NCBI GenBank assembly: GCA_016285455.1
Contig: JAEEQS010000002.1
Location: forward strand, 1-64,000
Source: Bacteroidales bacterium
GTDB taxonomy: Bacteria; Bacteroidota; Bacteroidia; Bacteroidales; UBA932
Length of the DNA stretch: 64,000 nucleotides
Reading direction: 5' to 3'
Shown: positions 20,989-32,428 of the stretch, in pieces
Layout: each line of letters begins with the position of its first letter
How positions within the stretch are numbered: the first letter of the stretch is position 1
Translations under genes and position numbers: made by a program
Notes under the pieces: generated by a model
Database searches by the model: none
The model's input: only the letters and a program-made list of their open reading frames with translations
What the model was told of the DNA's origin: nothing

Positions 20989-22575
20989 ATGGAAACGGGC
21001 GATATCAAGCTTCTTTACATTGACTTGTTTTGTGGGGCAGGTGGCACTACTACAGGCGTTGAGCGTGCCCGTGTGATGGGGACCAAGGTCGCAAAGGTCA
21101 TTGCCTGCGTCAATCACGATCCGCACGCAATTGAATCGCACTTGGCAAACCATCCTGGAGTCGTCCACTTCACAGAGGACATCCGGACGCTGGAACTGTC
21201 GGGGCTGGTGGAAATCGCTGCAAAGCAGAGGCAAGAGAACCCAGGTGCCAGGCTTGTACTCTGGGCCAGTCTGGAGTGCACCAATTTCAGCAAGGCAAAG
21301 GGCGGCATGCCCAGAGACGCTGACAGCCGGACGCTGGCAGAGCATCTATTCCGGTATATTGAGGCTTTGAAGCCGGATTACATTCAGATTGAGAATGTGA
21401 GGGAGTTTATGTCCTGGGGAGAGCTGGACACAAACGGCAAGCCTGTGAGCAAGGATAAGGGCAGACTCTATCTCCGATGGGTTAACAAGGTAAGGCGGTA
21501 CGGGTTCAACTTTGACTGGCGCATTCTCAATGCTGCAGATTACGGTGCATACACCTCACGGGAACGGTACTATGGCCTTTTCGCCAAGAAAGGGATGGAG
21601 ATAGCCTTTCCTGAACCGACTCACCAGCGCAACCCTCTGCCAAGCCTATTCGGCACCTTGAAGCCATGGAAACCTGTAAGGGAGGTACTTGACCTTGACG
21701 ATATAGGAAAATCCATCTTCCGTCAAAAGAAGCTGGCAGAAAAGACACTTGAACGCATTTATGCCGGACTGATAAAGTTTGTGGCCGGAGGCAAAGATTC
21801 TTTCCTGGTAAAGTACAATTCAATGAATCAGCGAGGCAAGTATGTTCCACCGTCTCTAGATGAGCCCTGCCCTGTTGTAGCTACGCAGAACAGGCTTGCA
21901 CTTGCAAGGGTTCAGTGGCTGTCAAAGCAGTATTCCGGTTCCCCAAACGATAAGAACATTTCCATTGATGGCCCAGCCAGCACCATTACTTGCATAGACC
22001 ATCACGCCTTCATTACCACTTACTATGGAAACGGACAGGCCGTGTCTTTGGAAGATCCAGCACCGACCATCCCCACTAGGGACAAAATTGCTCTCAATAC
22101 GATTCAGTTTCTGGATCAGCAGTATGGTGCAGGAAAGCCCTCGTCCATTGAAAGGCCAGCTGGGACCGTCACAACCACACCGAAACTCAACCTGGTTTCT
22201 GTCCAAAGAGACAATTTCCTATTGAATCCTCAGTTTGGTTCAGAGGGTTCCTCCATTGACCGACCTTGTTTTACGCTCATTGCGAGGATGGACAAAAAGC
22301 CTCCATATATTGTGACGGCAGAGTACGGGGCATCCATAGCGGTGTACGAGGATGACAGTCCAATGGAAGTCCAGATTAAGGAGTTCATGGCTATGTATGG
22401 AATTTGTGACATCTACATGCGGATGCTTAACGAGAAGGAATTGCTGAGAATCCAGGGATTCGGTGACAACTACAAGCTGGTGGGCACAACTGCAGAGAGA
22501 AAGAAGTACATAGGCAATGCCGTAGAGACACACCAGGCAGCAGCTCTCTGCCAAAGCCTGGCAATGGCAATGTAA
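20989..22575 (+). CDS. C5 cytosine DNA methyltransferase with repeated target-recognition region
   Basis: 528 residues. Motif I is YIDLFCGAGGTTTGVERA, motif IV is WASLECTNFSKAKGG with catalytic C97 in place of the usual PCQ context, motif VI is IENV (134-137), and the C-terminus has LRIQGFGDNYKL and YIGNAVETH. Between motif VIII and IX there are five copies of a short module S[IL][DE]xPxxT[IVL] (LDEPCPVV, IDGPASTI, LEDPAPTI, IERPAGTV, IDRPCFTL) spaced about 30-40 residues. It probably protects phage DNA from host restriction. No partner restriction gene is present. Confidence 0.88.
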   Translation: METGDIKLLYIDLFCGAGGTTTGVERARVMGTKVAKVIACVNHDPHAIESHLANHPGVVHFTEDIRTLELSGLVEIAAKQRQENPGARLVLWASLECTNFSKAKGGMPRDADSRTLAEHLFRYIEALKPDYIQIENVREFMSWGELDTNGKPVSKDKGRLYLRWVNKVRRYGFNFDWRILNAADYGAYTSRERYYGLFAKKGMEIAFPEPTHQRNPLPSLFGTLKPWKPVREVLDLDDIGKSIFRQKKLAEKTLERIYAGLIKFVAGGKDSFLVKYNSMNQRGKYVPPSLDEPCPVVATQNRLALARVQWLSKQYSGSPNDKNISIDGPASTITCIDHHAFITTYYGNGQAVSLEDPAPTIPTRDKIALNTIQFLDQQYGAGKPSSIERPAGTVTTTPKLNLVSVQRDNFLLNPQFGSEGSSIDRPCFTLIARMDKKPPYIVTAEYGASIAVYEDDSPMEVQIKEFMAMYGICDIYMRMLNEKELLRIQGFGDNYKLVGTTAERKKYIGNAVETHQAAALCQSLAMAM

Positions 22576-22874: not shown

Positions 22875-23072
22875 ATGGGATATTTTGCAAATAGACTGAA
22901 AAAGCGTCTTGAAAAAATGACCGACGAGCAACTGGAGAAGAAATTTCTTGAGATGGAAGAGTCTTCGAATATTGGCCCTACACTTGATGAATATCTTGTC
23001 GGTTACACTTTGTGTTTTCTTAACAAGAATGTTGAATCCAGATACTCATCTGGATTTTTTTGTTTTATTTAA
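22875..23072 (+). CDS. Candidate antitoxin of a toxin-antitoxin-chaperone module
   Basis: 65 residues: a charged helical N-terminal part (KKRLEKMTDEQLEKKFLEME) and a hydrophobic C-terminal tail ending YSSGFFCFI. In toxin-antitoxin-chaperone systems the antitoxin carries a C-terminal hydrophobic segment bound by a SecB-like chaperone, and the next gene is SecB-like. The last codons overlap a terminator hairpin with T-run, so the Phe-rich tail may partly reflect that element. The antitoxin role is inferred from position and this tail, not from a recognised family. Confidence 0.5.
   Translation: MGYFANRLKKRLEKMTDEQLEKKFLEMEESSNIGPTLDEYLVGYTLCFLNKNVESRYSSGFFCFI
23035..23063 (+). terminator. Intrinsic terminator overlapping the antitoxin 3' end
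   Basis: AATCCAGAT (23035-23043) and ATCTGGATT (23048-23056) form a perfect 9-bp stem with a 4-nt loop, followed by a T-run. It lies inside the last codons of the first cargo gene, so part of transcription should stop before the chaperone and toxin genes, favouring antitoxin excess. Confidence 0.75.
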
Positions 23073-23075
23073 ATT

Positions 23076-23498
23076 ATGGAAAAAGCTGTTTTTCAACTTG
23101 GAGGTTTCCTCTTTGAGGAGATTTCTCTTAAATTAGGTCATATTAAGAGAGAAGATATTCTCAAACTAAACTTCATTCCGAGCGGAGTGCTGCATACAAA
23201 AGAAGGTATATTTGATTTGACCTTTGAGTTCTCTGCTGCAATAGAAAAGAAATCAAATTCAAAACCTGTAGTTTATGTAAAGAGCTCCTCAAGATTTATC
23301 TTTAATGGCTCCATTACAAAGGACAAATTACCAGACTATTTCTATGCAAATAGTATTGCGATAGTTTTTCCTTATGTCAGAGCCTTTGTGAGCACTCTTA
23401 CACTTCAGGCAGGAATGATTCCACCGATTATTCTCCCAACTCTCAATTTATCATCTTTACAGCAAGAATTGGAGTCAAATGTTAAAGTAGAGGACTAG
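23076..23498 (+). CDS. SecB-like chaperone
   Basis: 140 residues with the SecB pattern: N-terminal strands (FDLTFEFSAAIEKK), FPYVRAFVSTLTLQAG (compare LFPYARE.IS.L...GGF in SecB) and PPIILPTLNLSSLQQEL (compare PPL.L.P.NF..LY). SecB holds clients unfolded; SecB-like proteins next to toxin-antitoxin pairs (TA-chaperone systems, for example Rv1957 and CmdC) instead protect the antitoxin. It starts 3 bp after the small gene and its stop overlaps the toxin GTG start (TAGTG), so the three are one operon. Confidence 0.82.
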   Translation: MEKAVFQLGGFLFEEISLKLGHIKREDILKLNFIPSGVLHTKEGIFDLTFEFSAAIEKKSNSKPVVYVKSSSRFIFNGSITKDKLPDYFYANSIAIVFPYVRAFVSTLTLQAGMIPPIILPTLNLSSLQQELESNVKVED

Positions 23499-24058
23499 TG
23501 AATAGAATTCTTTATCAGACATTAGAAGACAGACATAATATTGACTTTGTCCGAAAGTATGGTCCTTTTAAATGTTCTAGGAGAAGTGCATTTCTTGGGG
23601 ACGGTTATTATTTTTGGGATACCAATATTAATCATGCACATTCTTGGGGTAAGTCAAGTTATAATGGATCCTATATTATAGGGAAAATAGAAGTGCCATA
23701 TGACACTTCAAAGGTCTTTGATTTAACTGATCCTTATTACCTCCAGGATCTTAAAGATGCAGAAGAAAGGTTGAGAGAAGCATACAAATTTAAGAAACGA
23801 ATATGTGTAAGATTTATTATTGATTGGCTTAAAGAAGACCGTATTTTTTTGAAACGTTTTGTCGCAATACGAGCAAGTGATGCTAAGATTCAAATGAATA
23901 GCAACAATAAATTGTTTTTCTATGATGGGAGATCAGAATATTTGAATATGAGTCCAAGAGTTCAGATTTGCTATTTCTCAAATGACTCATTTAAATCTCT
24001 GCCTTTTACTATAGTTTATCCAGATAAGTATCTTGATTCGACACAGTTTGCTGTATAG
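23498..24058 (+). CDS. ADP-ribosyltransferase-like toxin candidate
   Basis: 186 residues, GTG start overlapping the chaperone stop. The N-terminal LYQTLEDRHNIDFV and the central LGDGYYFWDTNINHAHSWG resemble the YHGT...GxGFY.T...A..W pattern of DUF3990/ADP-ribosyltransferase-like proteins. C-terminal half is alpha/beta with conserved-looking aromatic residues. With the SecB-like gene upstream, the operon matches the CmdTAC idea (ART toxin, antitoxin, SecB chaperone) in which the toxin modifies mRNA when phage infection titrates the chaperone. Assignment to the ART fold is by motif impression and needs a profile search. Confidence 0.6.
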   Translation: MNRILYQTLEDRHNIDFVRKYGPFKCSRRSAFLGDGYYFWDTNINHAHSWGKSSYNGSYIIGKIEVPYDTSKVFDLTDPYYLQDLKDAEERLREAYKFKKRICVRFIIDWLKEDRIFLKRFVAIRASDAKIQMNSNNKLFFYDGRSEYLNMSPRVQICYFSNDSFKSLPFTIVYPDKYLDSTQFAV

Positions 24059-24278: not shown

Positions 24279-24352
24279 GTTTCGGCCCGGGTAGCGCGGT
24301 ATATCCAAGCTTGGGCACTCATTTAAGGGGTGTTCGCATCCCTTATTTTTTT
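24279..24352 (+). ncRNA. Putative 74-nt prophage small RNA
   Basis: Starts 6-7 nt after the promoter -7 box. It can form a 7-pair stem (GCCCGGG with CTTGGGC, two G-U) around a GC-rich loop GTAGCGCGG, a short single-stranded ACTCATTT, and an 8-pair terminator AAGGGGTG-TTCG-CATCCCTT (24325-24344) with the stable UUCG tetraloop and seven T. It ends at the MuF stop codon, so the hairpin also separates convergent transcripts. There is no start codon followed by a useful frame. Confidence 0.6.
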
Positions 24353-25766
24353 ACCCCAGGAGGCCCTCCAGCCACTCAAGGGAATCATCTTTACCCCCAT
24401 GAGCATAGTCATCCTTCGTTATCAGAATGGCTTTACCGCGATGAACAATGTAGCATCTCTCCATTCTGCCGGTAATAAAGTCATCCTTGCGCCCGTATAG
24501 TTTCCGGGCAAGTTTCCTGGTCGGCAGCGGCTTTTCCCCCATGTGTTGGTCCAAATCGAAGATGACAGCCTTACAACCTTGCCCAAGACTGCTGCGGAAC
24601 CCCGTTGTTATACCTTTATACCCCTCAATGCCCTTACGGTCAGCAACAATCCCGTCAATAGTATATTCCGGGTTCTTGCGTCCATCCTTATAGTGTCTAC
24701 GAATTTCCATTGAGCTATTAGGGAAAGCCGTAAGGAGTTTTCTGGCTGTCTGAATGTTTTGCTCTAAATCTTTCAAGTCAGCCCTTGAACTTATCAAAAG
24801 CCTTTTTCCTAGCTCAATATCAGCATAAAAAGCATTTTCATCGGCACATATTCTAATTAAGCCACATTCTTGGCAAAGCGGATTGTCAGGGTCTCCGGCA
24901 AAAAGCTTCAGGTTGGCTTTGGTGCAGCCTTTGCACTTGCTGATGGTGTATGGGTTATAGTCCGGGAAGGTCTTCTGCTGCTTGCCCGGATTGAAGTTGA
25001 ACATTCCCTTCTTGTCGTTGGCAAGAGCTTTTGCGCCACGTTGCATGGCTTCGTTGTGAGGAGTGGGTTCGTGCATATACCGGAGGACCTGGACTACCGT
25101 GCAGCGGCAGTTCCAGCCGTTTGGAGGATAGTAGGAATCCCAGAAGGAGTCTGATGCTGGAAGAGTGACATCATGCAGGGCTGCGTGTTCCGGCCTTACT
25201 GCTCCATCATTGGCCGTGCGGTACTGGAGATAGTATTCATCCTCATCCTTGGAGAACTGCTCCCATCTGGCAGCCATATCAGCCGATGCGGAAACAAAGT
25301 TGTACTCTGCCCTGAGATACCTTTCGTTGTAGGTCTGGTCTATCTTTTTAACGTCGTTTAAAAACTGGTTAAACGGCTTTTTCTTGCCGTCTTCATCCAG
25401 GAGAGAATAAAATGCTTCTCCGACTTCATGGAAAGTCTTAAAACCGCTGAAAATGTAGTCTGAACGCTGGAGGTTTGCCCTCATCTCATCGGACATTTCC
25501 TCCTGGGCAAAGGTGGAGTCCAGGATATCGGAATGAGTTTCTATGAAGCTCTCTACTTCCGGCTCACGAAGTATGTCTATCCGGAGAGCTGCACCTTTCT
25601 CCCTGAAGAGTGCAGACATCATCTTCTCGAACTTCTTGTGGAGTTTCTTCTGGAGTTCTGACGGGACTTCCGCCTGCTTGGCCAAAGTCAGGCCTTGAGC
25701 GTTCCATTTGGACAGGATCTGCTCATATCTCAGGTGCAGCCCCTCATAGTCGGAGGGGCTCAGTCG
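24351..25766 (-). CDS. MuF head protein with C-terminal nuclease-like toxin domain
   Basis: Head morphogenesis protein reached from the portal gene by a -1 frameshift; frame given from the slip site (471 codons). The only usual-type start is TTG at 25685; between slip site and TTG the frame is open and protein-like (RLSPSDYEGLHLRYEQILSK). Numbering from the TTG: MuF core with YRTANDGAVRPEHAAL and PPNGWNCRC (about 155-195), a zinc-ribbon-like CxxC pair (251/254, 271/274), then a C-terminal domain (about 285-440) with NPEYTIDGIVADRKG, where PE (339-340) and DRK (349-351) fit a PD-(D/E)xK or CdiA tRNase-like site. MuF-linked toxins of temperate phages are known. No immunity gene follows. Confidence 0.82.
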   Translation of the reverse strand, partial: RLSPSDYEGLHLRYEQILSKWNAQGLTLAKQAEVPSELQKKLHKKFEKMMSALFREKGAALRIDILREPEVESFIETHSDILDSTFAQEEMSDEMRANLQRSDYIFSGFKTFHEVGEAFYSLLDEDGKKKPFNQFLNDVKKIDQTYNERYLRAEYNFVSASADMAARWEQFSKDEDEYYLQYRTANDGAVRPEHAALHDVTLPASDSFWDSYYPPNGWNCRCTVVQVLRYMHEPTPHNEAMQRGAKALANDKKGMFNFNPGKQQKTFPDYNPYTISKCKGCTKANLKLFAGDPDNPLCQECGLIRICADENAFYADIELGKRLLISSRADLKDLEQNIQTARKLLTAFPNSSMEIRRHYKDGRKNPEYTIDGIVADRKGIEGYKGITTGFRSSLGQGCKAVIFDLDQHMGEKPLPTRKLARKLYGRKDDFITGRMERCYIVHRGKAILITKDDYAHGGKDDSLEWLEGLLG

Positions 25767-25772
25767 AAAAAA
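25738..25772 (-). other. Programmed -1 frameshift signal joining portal and MuF
   Basis: On the coding strand: heptamer T TTT TTC (25772-25766) in the portal frame (CGT TTT TTC GAC TGA), 5-nt spacer GACTG, then a perfect 8-bp stem AGCCCCTC / GAGGGGCT (25760-25753 and 25745-25738) with a 7-nt loop. This is the textbook X XXY YYZ plus spacer plus hairpin. A -1 slip avoids the portal TGA and enters MuF in frame, giving a portal-MuF fusion of about 888 residues. Confidence 0.8.
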
Positions 25773-27016
25773 CGGTTTGGAGTCTTCTTGCTTCCAGTCA
25801 AGCCAGGGAGTCCGTTGTTTCTTCTCTCTCCGGCAGGGATTCCGTATTTGTCCTGGAAGTAAGATCCGTCCACCTCATAGTTATTGAGCACCATCTGCTC
25901 AATGGCCACCTGCTGCTCCGGAGTATAGTCCACCGGATCATCCCAGTTGAATGTAAGATCCTTCACAGGGAAGCCGTGTCTGACCATCTTTGGCAGCAGC
26001 TGGTTGTTGACTACATCCCTGACCATATCACAGTAAGCCTCAATGAGGTTCTTGAAGACCTTCATGTGTGTTTGGCTCTGGCTCAGGGAGCTGCCGTCTT
26101 CTATGGTCATAGTCTGCTTCAGGACCAGTTTGGAGAGCTCGGAGTTGCAGCGGTCTATCCTTTTGTCATAGACATTGAAGGCATCGCCTTTAGAACTTTC
26201 CACGAGTTCTATGTCTGTGGTGTCATCAAATACTCCCCAGGCTTTGGCTCCCATATTCTCCATCATAGAGGCCACTTTCTTCCTCTCGTTTTCATCCCTG
26301 GCCGTAGTCTTAGCAATCCTGACAGGGATGCCGAACATCTCAGCGAAGGTATCCCAGAAAGCTCCGGCATATTTCTTTGGGATGGTATGCAGTGCTGCTT
26401 TCTTGTATAGGCCAAGATCATCTTTCTTTCCGGCTTCAATAAGCCAGTCCACATACGGTGCGCTGCGGTAGTCTATTCCGGACTGCCACCCCTCTCCCAG
26501 TGTCTTTACGATGCGGCCATATTCCGGAATGACATGCTTTCTGGGAATGAGTTTCACTCCGTCAAAGTTGATGTTGCCGTTCTCATCGGTGATGACATTG
26601 CCGAGCTCAACGAGCGAATGACCCCAGTAGATGGATTCCAGGATATAGTCGAGAAGATCCTTGAACCACTCAGTGTTGAAATAGACTTCTGCATCCTTGA
26701 CAGTATCGCCTTTAGGGTTGGTGAGCTTAAAGCTGCGGCATTTGACAAAGCCGTTCACCTGTCCTATAGCACCTGTAAGATGGGCATCAAGGTCCACATC
26801 ATTGTATATGTCATAAAGCTGCAGCCTCTGCGGATTCTCCACATTCACGGCCAGCTGGCAAGCATATCTCCAGTGGGAGATGTCATGCTCTGTAAGCATA
26901 TCCGTGTATCGCTGAAGATCCACTACAACCTTCTTGAGTCTCTTGCGGTCTGAAGCCTTAGAGAGGTCAAACGTGCCGTGTTTTTCGCTTTTGAGTATGT
27001 TCTTTTTCTTTTCCAT
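25760..27016 (-). CDS. Portal protein (DUF935, Mu gp29-like)
   Basis: 418 residues. DUF935 portal proteins form the dodecameric ring at one head vertex through which DNA enters and leaves. The core includes WRYACQLAVNVENPQ, a GHSLVELG segment, PRKHVIPEYGR, and a C-terminal LKQTMTIEDGSSLSQSQTH plus stem and crown helices. Its last codons hold a slippery heptamer and the hairpin that would extend a fraction of chains into MuF. In Mu the two are separate genes (29 and 30). Confidence 0.9.
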   Translation of the reverse strand: MEKKKNILKSEKHGTFDLSKASDRKRLKKVVVDLQRYTDMLTEHDISHWRYACQLAVNVENPQRLQLYDIYNDVDLDAHLTGAIGQVNGFVKCRSFKLTNPKGDTVKDAEVYFNTEWFKDLLDYILESIYWGHSLVELGNVITDENGNINFDGVKLIPRKHVIPEYGRIVKTLGEGWQSGIDYRSAPYVDWLIEAGKKDDLGLYKKAALHTIPKKYAGAFWDTFAEMFGIPVRIAKTTARDENERKKVASMMENMGAKAWGVFDDTTDIELVESSKGDAFNVYDKRIDRCNSELSKLVLKQTMTIEDGSSLSQSQTHMKVFKNLIEAYCDMVRDVVNNQLLPKMVRHGFPVKDLTFNWDDPVDYTPEQQVAIEQMVLNNYEVDGSYFQDKYGIPAGERRNNGLPGLTGSKKTPNRFFD

Positions 27017-31087: not shown

Positions 31088-32428
31088 ATGAAAAAGTTTA
31101 TTGTTATCGCTATGGCTCTGATGCTCAACTGCGTTTCAGGAGCCTTTCTGGGTGCCACAGTAGGCCTTGAGCCGATTGTAGGTGCCGTCGGGATGAACAT
31201 TGTGGCAGTAGCCGCCGGCTTTATGCCTGCAGAGTATTCTATCCTGCGTGCAGGAGTGTATCGTGAAATCTGGACCGGAGAGATGGTCAAGAAACTCCGT
31301 GGGGGGCTTGCAGCCACCTGGCTGGACGGAATTCCAGATATGTCTTCTCTTGTGGATAATGACGTTATCCATCTTGTTGATGTGGGAGTTGATCCTGATG
31401 TACTGGTGAACAACACCACTTATCCTATTCCGGAGCAGGCTCTTAACGATGCCGACATTCCTGTTGGACTGGACAAGTTCCAGACCAAGGTTACTCCTAT
31501 TACAGATGATGAGCTTCACGCAATTAGCTACGATAAGATGGCCAGGGTACTGGAAAGCCATGGTAATGCCATCAACGACAGCAAGTTTGCCAAGGCAGCC
31601 CATTCTATCTGCGCTGCAGCAAATACTGCTGCAACCCCTGTGCTCAGCACTAGCGGTGCTGTAATCGCCGAGACCGGCAGAAAGAGGATGACCCGTCAGG
31701 ATCTCATCGATCTGAAAGCCGCTCTGGATAAGCTCAGAGTTCCTGCAGAGGGAAGAAGGCTCGTTCTCTGCCCTGATCACGTCAATGACATGCTTGGATG
31801 GAGTGAGGCTTTCGAGCATCAGTATTCTCTTGACAATGCCAACGGCAAGATTGCAAGACTCTACGGATTCGACATCTACGAGTTTGCGGCCAACCCACTC
31901 TACACCACCGCAGGTGCCAAGAAGGCTTATGGCTCTACTGCTTCAACCGGTGAGTTCCAGTGCTCGTTTGCATTCTATACCAACCGCATCTTCAAGGCTA
32001 CCGGTTCCACCAAGATGTACCACCGTCTTGCAGAGACTGATCCTGAGAAGCAGCGCAGCACCATCAACTTCCGCCATTACTTCATCGCAATGCCGAAGAA
32101 GGCAGATGCCGGTGCCGTGCTTATGAGCGGATACAATGCAGGTGGCCAGCCTACTATTACCGGCGATGATTCTCTGGAGGTAGCAGCAACTTCAGGTAGC
32201 AATACCAGGACTTATGCCACTAGCAACGGAGCTGCAGTAACAGCAGAAAGCAATGCTGATTGGCTGACCGTTTCCGCTTCAGGCAATAAGGTAACCTTCA
32301 CCAGAACCGCTTATGCTTACAGCGCAGAAGATCCAGAAACCCGTTCTGCAACTGTAACAATTGGTATATCCGGAACCAACGTCACTAAGAGTGTGACCGT
32401 AACCCAGGCAATGGCCAGCCAGAGCTAA
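31088..32428 (+). CDS. Major capsid protein (Mu gpT-like) with C-terminal BACON-like domain
   Basis: 446 residues. The middle (about 50-350) is a Mu-type major head subunit: MSSLVDNDVIHLVDVGVDP, a CPDHVNDMLGW strand and MYHRLAETDPEKQRSTINFR. The N-terminus is very hydrophobic (MKKFIVIAMALMLNCVSG), like a signal sequence, which is odd for a capsid and may be removed by the protease. Residues about 355-446 read as a BACON domain: a short EVAATSG strand, ADWLTVSASGNKVTFT, R-S-A-T-V-T-I and the closing VTVTQA. Such a domain on the outside of the head could bind mucus or glycans. Confidence 0.85.
   Translation: MKKFIVIAMALMLNCVSGAFLGATVGLEPIVGAVGMNIVAVAAGFMPAEYSILRAGVYREIWTGEMVKKLRGGLAATWLDGIPDMSSLVDNDVIHLVDVGVDPDVLVNNTTYPIPEQALNDADIPVGLDKFQTKVTPITDDELHAISYDKMARVLESHGNAINDSKFAKAAHSICAAANTAATPVLSTSGAVIAETGRKRMTRQDLIDLKAALDKLRVPAEGRRLVLCPDHVNDMLGWSEAFEHQYSLDNANGKIARLYGFDIYEFAANPLYTTAGAKKAYGSTASTGEFQCSFAFYTNRIFKATGSTKMYHRLAETDPEKQRSTINFRHYFIAMPKKADAGAVLMSGYNAGGQPTITGDDSLEVAATSGSNTRTYATSNGAAVTAESNADWLTVSASGNKVTFTRTAYAYSAEDPETRSATVTIGISGTNVTKSVTVTQAMASQS

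Follow-up and report, generated by a model that had tools for sequence, protein, structure and literature searches.

How is the minor head protein MuF made in a phage whose MuF reading frame lacks an ordinary start codon? The question is raised by a Mu-like element of a Bacteroidales bacterium, carried in the 64,000-nucleotide (nt) stretch analysed here (the window; positions 1 to 64,000 of contig JAEEQS010000002.1), in which the end of the portal gene overlaps the MuF frame on the minus strand. The portal gene (25760..27016) is of the Mu gp29 / DUF935 type, and its zero-frame product of 418 amino acids (aa) matches Portal_Mu (PF06074) with 245.8 bits, above the curated cut-off of 23.9, as well as phrog_113 (portal protein). 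Its 3' end reads CGT TTT TTC GAC TGA. Read directly, this contains a slippery heptamer, T_TTT_TTC (25766..25772), which is in the right phase for a tandem -1 slip and is kept in relatives from IMG/VR, followed by a 5-nt spacer, GACTG (25761..25765). Next comes a hairpin (25738..25760), the presumed stimulator, with a perfect stem of 8 base pairs (bp) and a 7-nt loop, supported by folding and covariation; its arms AGCCCCTC/GAGGGGCT pair 25760-25753 with 25745-25738. The portal stop codon, TGA (25760..25762), falls between the slip site and the loop. In the -1 frame, no stop codon interrupts the stretch between 25874 and the MuF stop at 24351. Entered by a slip, this frame encodes 471 aa plus the stop (24351..25766) and matches Phage_Mu_F (PF04233; 60.4 bits, cut-off 29.6) and TIGR01641 (47.6 bits, cut-off 39.65).

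An earlier note on this DNA had described the in-frame heptamer, the 5-nt spacer, the 8-bp stem and the 7-nt loop, and all of them are found at the positions it gave. The frame scan likewise confirmed its claims that the -1 frame is that of MuF, open to 24351, and that a TTG is the sole candidate start before the recognised core. There is no GTG in the entire open -1 stretch of the window. The first ATG (25620..25622) lies 140 nt downstream of the first base of the portal stop, at residue 49 and within a predicted core helix (residues 36-54), and the single earlier TTG (25683..25685) lies 77 nt downstream of that base, at residue 28, in a low-confidence stretch (21-28) of the structural model.

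By far the best explanation of this arrangement, and on the comparisons below a very probable one, is a programmed -1 ribosomal frameshift at the 3' end of the portal gene. Most ribosomes would read TTT TTC GAC TGA and release the 418-aa portal protein; some, slowed by the hairpin 5 nt downstream, would slip one base back on T_TTT_TTC and enter MuF, yielding a predicted portal-MuF fusion of 417 + 471 = 888 aa that may end in an effector domain. A few MuF-bearing subunits would then stand among the plain ones of the portal ring. This would place a small, fixed number of MuF copies at the portal, on the inner side of the head, with no need for a separate MuF start codon. Portal rings have twelve subunits, and a -1 rate of some 10% would give about 1-2 MuF copies in each. 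We infer in this way that slipping occurs, in what ratio it does so, that the fusion enters mixed rings, where the frameshift may fix the MuF copy number, and what MuF and its C-terminal domain do there.

The window offers some evidence of its own. A 76-nt fold at the junction has an energy of -22.7 kcal/mol (z -2.36), and because 6 of 200 shuffles fold equally well, the fold by itself is modest evidence only. A single copy of heptamer, spacer and GCCCC together (pattern TTTTTTCGACTRAGCCCC) is present in the window, and none in any of 100 shuffles.

Heptamer and hairpin across split relatives

The comparison rests on three sets of loci. For the wide set, we searched 393 genomes of the same order, of which 51 had matches at E<=1e-20; together with other loci, phage records and further regions, this gave 71 entries, including the window and its copies, and 62 nonredundant loci at <90% portal identity. 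MuF lies in the -1 frame in 54 of the entries, in one frame with the portal in 10, in the +1 frame in 3, and is otherwise placed or not covered in 4; the corresponding nonredundant numbers are 45, 10, 3 and 4. In 43 of the 45 split -1 loci, the overlap carries an in-frame A/T heptamer, compared with 3.6% of portal-body windows of equal length. The heptamer is TTTTTTC in 25 loci, AAATTTT in 8, TTTTTTT in 5 and of other types in 5, and it stands 7 or 10 nt before the portal stop in 29 of the 45. Hairpins were scored with a simple stem score and called significant at p<=0.05 against random positions of the same locus. They follow the heptamer in 34 of the 43 loci; the spacer measures 3-7 nt, and in 31 of the 34 it is 4-6 nt long. 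In two loci (L031, L047), the choice of heptamer was moved by hand to an upstream candidate preceding a hairpin, and the hairpin count is therefore favoured for these two. Hankyphage p00, annotated with separate genes, has T_TTT_TTC 46 nt before its portal stop, followed by GCCCCG/CGGGGC (p 0.022). In two of the three +1 loci, the Flavobacterium phages L040 and L041, the portal stop is followed after 7 nt by an ATG; in the third (L054), the portal is one base out of phase with a T6C run, probably through an assembly indel or the decay of the prophage.

The close set was obtained by scanning IMG/VR with a profile of close portals (A1) and taking the best 80 of 437 relatives, of which 78 reach the portal stop, 60 remain at <95% identity and 58 are informative. 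The two dropped representatives have a broken portal frame (L156) or end with the contig (L167, heptamer and hairpin present), and the contigs of three members (L130, L134, L136) also figure in the wide set, as L002-L004. T_TTT_TTC is in frame in all 58 informative loci, in the same place in 57, and MuF is open in the -1 frame in every one. The hairpin is significant in 55 of the 58, with a 5-nt spacer in 51 of these 55. The three misses (L147, L165, L180) have a loop insertion of ~75 nt and arms that still match (CTC/GAG, CAC/GTG, CAG/CTG); these insertions amount to a natural test of the stem.

The stem varies in a correlated manner. Alignment A2 comprises the window and 57 close-set loci and has 47 distinct rows. 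Of its cells, 93.1% are paired; a double change is seen in 34, where shuffled alignments give 10.0 +/- 2.4 (0 of 500 as high) and slid partners at most 7. Two other counts are weaker: 3 pairs have a double change (34 of 500 shuffles as high) and there are 9 further pair types (193 of 500). Matched codon pairs of the two arms (S-E, S-L, T-V, A-A) occur in 45 of the 57 loci, as TCC/TCT+GAG in 18, AGT/AGC+CTG in 12, ACC/ACT+GTG in 11 and GCC/GCT+GCG in 4. The codon before TTT TTC ends in T whatever residue it encodes (P 34, S 12, R 4, G 3, D 2, N 2 and A 1 among the 58 loci). The junction therefore shows the features by which -1 frameshift sites are recognised, i.e., an X_XXY_YYZ heptamer in the zero-frame phase and a short-spaced downstream structure with compensatory changes, and the comparison shows that this signal is under selection.

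One-frame relatives and the purpose of the slip

In some relatives, portal and MuF are read in a single frame, at first sight as a plain fusion. Twelve such loci (10 of the wide set plus L096 and L105) were examined. In 11 of them, where 0.77 would be expected, an A/T heptamer lies in phase no more than 12 codons from the junction (L057 is the exception), and 7 of the 12 have a significant hairpin after it. In three of them (L035, L065, L096), AAATTTT is followed by AA, so that a slip leads directly to a stop codon. We enlarged this sample with a third set, drawn from IMG/VR with the portals of the one-frame clade (A6) as the best 80 of 83 loci, which left 59 representatives at <95% identity; some of these phages may also be present among the wide-set one-frame loci. 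Among these, 48 are one-frame, 8 have the window layout and 3 are otherwise arranged. T_TTT_TTC lies in frame at the junction of 47 of the 48 one-frame loci (all but L289), with a significant hairpin in 47 of 47 and a spacer of 5-6 nt in 45. Here too the residue before the heptamer varies (D, R, N, S, G, Y, H, P) and its codon ends in T. The -1 frame stops after 6-36 codons (median 26) in each of the 47; background -1 stops fall at or below 36 codons in 86% of cases, and the probability of this for all 47 is 0.001. Heptamer and hairpin are both present in the 8 loci of window type and in one of the remaining three (L282), and the other two (L266, L287) have no heptamer. Comparison thus shows, unexpectedly and beyond what the earlier note had described, that the signal persists when the layout is mirrored.

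This mirrored layout resembles that of Escherichia coli dnaX (tau/gamma), in which the zero frame encodes the long protein, whereas ribosomes that slip to -1 soon meet a stop and make the short one; dnaX-type sites also have an upstream Shine-Dalgarno-like stimulator. The one-frame relatives combine an in-frame heptamer, a hairpin and an early -1 stop, a combination absent from the window, and are predicted to make the long product by the zero frame and the short one by slipping, which would release the portal alone. The differences are that this is a phage portal and not a DNA polymerase, and that the window lineage has the opposite polarity. Since a slip makes the fusion in one layout and the portal alone in the other, both predict a mixture of portal and portal-MuF.

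We placed the two layouts on a tree of portals (86 rows, short search), leaving out 7 of the 62 wide-set representatives with an unclear junction or frame (L014, L030, L050, L054, L056, L060, L069) and labelling the added loci by hand. A supported group of 65 rows contains 51 of window type, 12 one-frame and 2 with separate genes. The one-frame rows require at least 9 changes, and the polarity has therefore changed repeatedly, in a direction that these counts do not reveal. Assembly errors were considered and rejected for both layouts: the split is present in all 58 informative contigs of the close set, and the one-frame layout recurs in 48 distinct loci and as a single coding sequence in a Porphyromonas phage record. 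A search of 395 genomes of the phylum gave Portal_Mu matches in 43.

A frameshift that is real could serve a purpose other than the stoichiometry of a mixed ring, e.g., the anchoring of MuF only, or a fusion that is cleaved soon after synthesis. We regard this as less likely than not. It is favoured in that the ratio and the composition of the ring are predictions here, and by the one-frame relatives, where the fusion would be the default product. The same relatives also argue the other way: they keep the slip signal and the early -1 stop in all 47 heptamer loci, which suggests that the portal alone is needed too.

The beginning of MuF and other routes to two products

If MuF is entered by slipping, the codons between the slip site and the first usable start should encode protein. 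In the window, the extension upstream of the TTG includes a conserved predicted helix (residues 4-20 after the slip, 25707..25757), conserved in the alignment and helical in the AlphaFold2 model of the -1 product (mean predicted local distance difference test score, pLDDT, 80.4), where the helix scores in the high 60s, residues 21-28 are of low confidence and the core begins at 36. Across the wide set, the residues after the slip are conserved, with R-L/I-S-P near the start and then an LY motif; G9, L10 and Y14 are invariant in 41 sequences, and the first ATG comes at least 21 codons after the slip in 41 of 43 loci. In the closest pairs, non-synonymous changes are relatively fewer than synonymous ones upstream of the first ATG: the window and L006 have a proportion of synonymous changes (pS) of 0.57 and of non-synonymous changes (pN) of 0.19 over 44 codons, and L032 and L047 have 0.45 and 0.11 over 16 codons. 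The sequence comparison thus shows that the extension is coding, with the -1 frame under protein selection directly after the slip. Public profiles bear on the same boundary: the match to phrog_23416 begins with residue 53 of the -1 product, and the 890 positions of phrog_35074 run through both portal and MuF. The MuF models publicly available for such phages would appear to be either fused or truncated, seemingly beginning near the internal ATG.

The earlier note had named a normal ATG start for MuF in relatives as grounds for rejecting the frameshift, and had called for a search of relatives for heptamer and stem. None of the 58 close relatives has an ATG of the MuF frame so near the portal stop: the first one is at least 30 nt past it in all of them (median 128). 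With the heptamer in 58 of 58 loci and compensatory changes in the stem, there is strong support, at the level of a genetic programme, for the note's proposal that MuF extends some of the portal chains.

Several observations weigh against this interpretation. Some start codon (ATG, GTG or TTG) lies within 30 nt of the portal stop in 15 of the 58 close loci, at +17 nt in 13 of them, and the TTG of the window is a possible independent start. Two split loci of the wide set (L030, L069) have no heptamer, and 9 of the 43 that do have one show no significant simple hairpin. Long A runs, often without a hairpin, are found in distant loci (L100, L103, L117-L120), where transcriptional slippage is possible. 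Finally, the codon statistics pooled over 258 pairs, window duplicates and very distant pairs among them, rest on non-independent data in which only the closest pairs are informative, and we did not rely on them.

In a rival reading, MuF is a separate protein, started at the TTG at 25685 (or the ATG at 25622) by ordinary initiation or by termination-reinitiation, and the heptamer merely encodes a conserved Phe-Phe-Asp portal tail. We consider it very improbable. The TTG does exist, the record of hankyphage p00 gives MuF an ATG start and lets it overlap the portal stop, and separate MuF genes with an ATG near the portal stop are found in distant Portal_Mu lineages. However, start codons are conserved neither in place nor in kind, the window TTG is preceded by conserved residues and a predicted helix, and the covariation of the stem is left unexplained. 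As for the tail, the T before TTT TTC is kept while the residue changes (Pro, Ser, Arg, Gly, Asp, Asn, Ala), even though T-ending codons make up just 0.14-0.20 of Pro codons at three Pro loci of the wide set; moreover, other relatives use A_AAT_TTT, and the protein motif is therefore not what is kept. In 33 control loci with separate genes (Proteobacterial and Faecalibacterium phages among them), hand-picked among those classed neither as frameshift nor as one-frame and with an uncertain MuF in some, an A/T heptamer occurs in the last 50 codons of the portal in 2 (L111, L040).

Three cultured phages with a candidate signal and one distant family show how the junction varies. Elizabethkingia phage TCUEAP3 (L101) has T_TTT_TTC, a 6-nt spacer and the arms GCTCCTCA/TGAGGAGC; its record places the beginning of MuF 275 nt past the portal stop. 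Winogradskyella phage Peternella_1 (MT732475, L100) has A runs and no hairpin, with MuF annotated from +98 nt, and Flavobacterium phage fF4 (MN850656) has an A run and a hairpin with p 0.09, with MuF annotated from a GTG at +8 nt. In both Peternella_1 and TCUEAP3, no stop codon in the -1 frame separates these later annotated starts from the slip site; in the main text of the ISME J paper on Peternella_1, the term 'mass spectrometry' does not occur. The family f136, which carries runs of A, occupies 6 rows inside a group otherwise made of 15 separate rows, suggesting from sequence a second origin of the slip at this junction; its hairpin is significant in 1 of the 6 rows only (L099), and its A runs could slip in transcription.

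Least credible of all is slippage of the RNA polymerase on a homopolymer run, giving mixed mRNAs and the same two products: the window has a run of six T, and f136 loci and Peternella_1 have runs of 9 or 10 A, mostly without a significant hairpin, but six T are short for transcriptional slippage, members with A_AAT_TTT have no long run, the codon phase of the heptamer is kept, and the hairpin follows at 4-6 nt, the spacing of ribosomal frameshift signals, in 31 of the 34 wide-set loci where it is significant. A chance origin of the signal is ruled out by the wide-set junctions (43/45 against the 3.6% background) and by the 0 of 100 shuffles with the window pattern. An intrinsic terminator was also rejected: the T run precedes the hairpin on the sense strand, and read from the opposite strand the hairpin is followed by a run of A.

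MuF domains, neighbouring genes and known systems

The window MuF carries its Phage_Mu_F domain (PF04233) at residues 135-224 (25095..25364), followed by a C-terminal stretch (24501..24677) that a profile search finds similar to CdiA_C with 18.6 and 16.9 bits, below the Pfam cut-off of 26.6. A fold search of the PDB with the MuF model gave no match at E<=0.001. In window-type relatives (alignment A3, E<=0.01), the C-termini match CdiA_C in 14 of 39, LPD3 in 5 and Gln_amidase in 1; in one-frame relatives (alignment A4, same threshold), PBECR2 is matched in 8 of 10. If the frameshift is real, the nuclease-like domains at the ends of many of these MuF proteins suggest a dosed, covalent loading of effectors at the portal.

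The surrounding genes identify the element as Mu-like: a MuA-type transposase (phrog_310, E 1.2e-74), a DNA transposition protein (phrog_296), a prohead protease and a major head protein are present, and portal and MuF come after the terminase genes and a Mu gp36-like gene. The closest portal from a named record, at 99.8% identity, is that of the metagenome-assembled genome RUG11482 (uncultured Bacteroidia bacterium). The major head protein (31088-32428) has a C-terminal BACON domain (PF13004), which the record of hankyphage p00 also notes for its major capsid protein. Near the head genes, on the plus strand, lies a C-5 cytosine DNA methylase gene (20989-22575; PF00145, 95.9 bits). Beside the 3' end of MuF, small genes occupy the plus strand (22875-24058), including one for a SecB-like protein (23076-23498; PF02556, 25.5 bits, cut-off 26) followed, with a 1-base overlap, by one for a 186-aa protein without a Pfam match; as a guess, these two could form a pair of the toxin-antitoxin-chaperone type or have an immunity function.

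Frameshifting in phage structural genes is known chiefly from tail-assembly chaperones. In lambda G/GT, a -1 frameshift extends the chaperone. There and in SPP1 17.5/17.5*, as proposed here, a -1 slip in the upstream reading frame yields a minor, C-terminally extended form. The putative slip site of SPP1 17.5 is the same UUUUUUC heptamer (PMC6316719). The present case differs in that portal and MuF genes are involved, the extended form is expected in the head, and a version of inverted polarity exists; G/GT-type pairs stand directly upstream of the tape measure gene, and the portal-MuF pair does not. The best-studied MuF protein, SPP1 gp7, is described as binding the portal with 1-2 copies per capsid (PMC5576092), and SPP1 without gp7 as assembling with only ~25% of virions infectious (PMC6316719). 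The likeness to gp6-gp7 lies in a portal-bound MuF protein of which few copies are brought into the procapsid (PMC5576092, PMC6316719). However, gp7 is a separate product held by protein-protein interaction, whereas the link proposed here is a covalent one, its dose set by frameshifting; by analogy, the 1-2 copies of SPP1 would suit a low frameshift rate. Microbacterium phages (EA3, EA5, EA8, EB) likewise have portal and MuF in one gene, but with no frameshift described at that junction in the text available (PMC7302621). MuF polymorphic toxins join MuF to variable C-terminal effector domains (PMC5576092, PMC5512222, PMC11699363), as do the relatives studied here with CdiA_C, LPD3, Gln_amidase and PBECR2, but in the text available no frame linkage to the portal is described for them. 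The PBECR domains are predicted RNases thought to be delivered by phages (PMC5512222). In the open-access literature searched, we found no report of frameshifting at a portal-MuF junction. We regard as new the junction site, its unusually strict conservation and its reversible polarity; frameshifting in phage structural genes was already known, and the heptamer itself is ordinary.

Taking the evidence together, we lean towards a deeply conserved recoding switch in the Mu-like phages of Bacteroidota, whose constant output would be a mixed portal ring with a few subunits carrying a covalently tethered MuF, often with an effector domain. It would be the mixture, and not the frame, that is kept: lineages would repeatedly have moved between a slip that makes the fusion and a slip that makes the portal alone, with heptamer and hairpin retained; the slip of f136 would be independent, and the twelve-fold symmetry of the ring would be broken at a programmed frequency. 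For an effector to enter the host, the covalent tether to the portal would need cleavage; otherwise it might do its work while still in the capsid.

The control of copy number for minor head proteins at the portal is, to our knowledge, largely unexplained. If the frameshift interpretation is true, the dose of MuF at the portal would be written in the mRNA, and the absence of an ordinary MuF start codon in these phages would be explained. The portal, the vertex through which DNA enters and exits, would join the phage structures built by frameshifting, and its recoding signal would have been retained through reversals of its own polarity.
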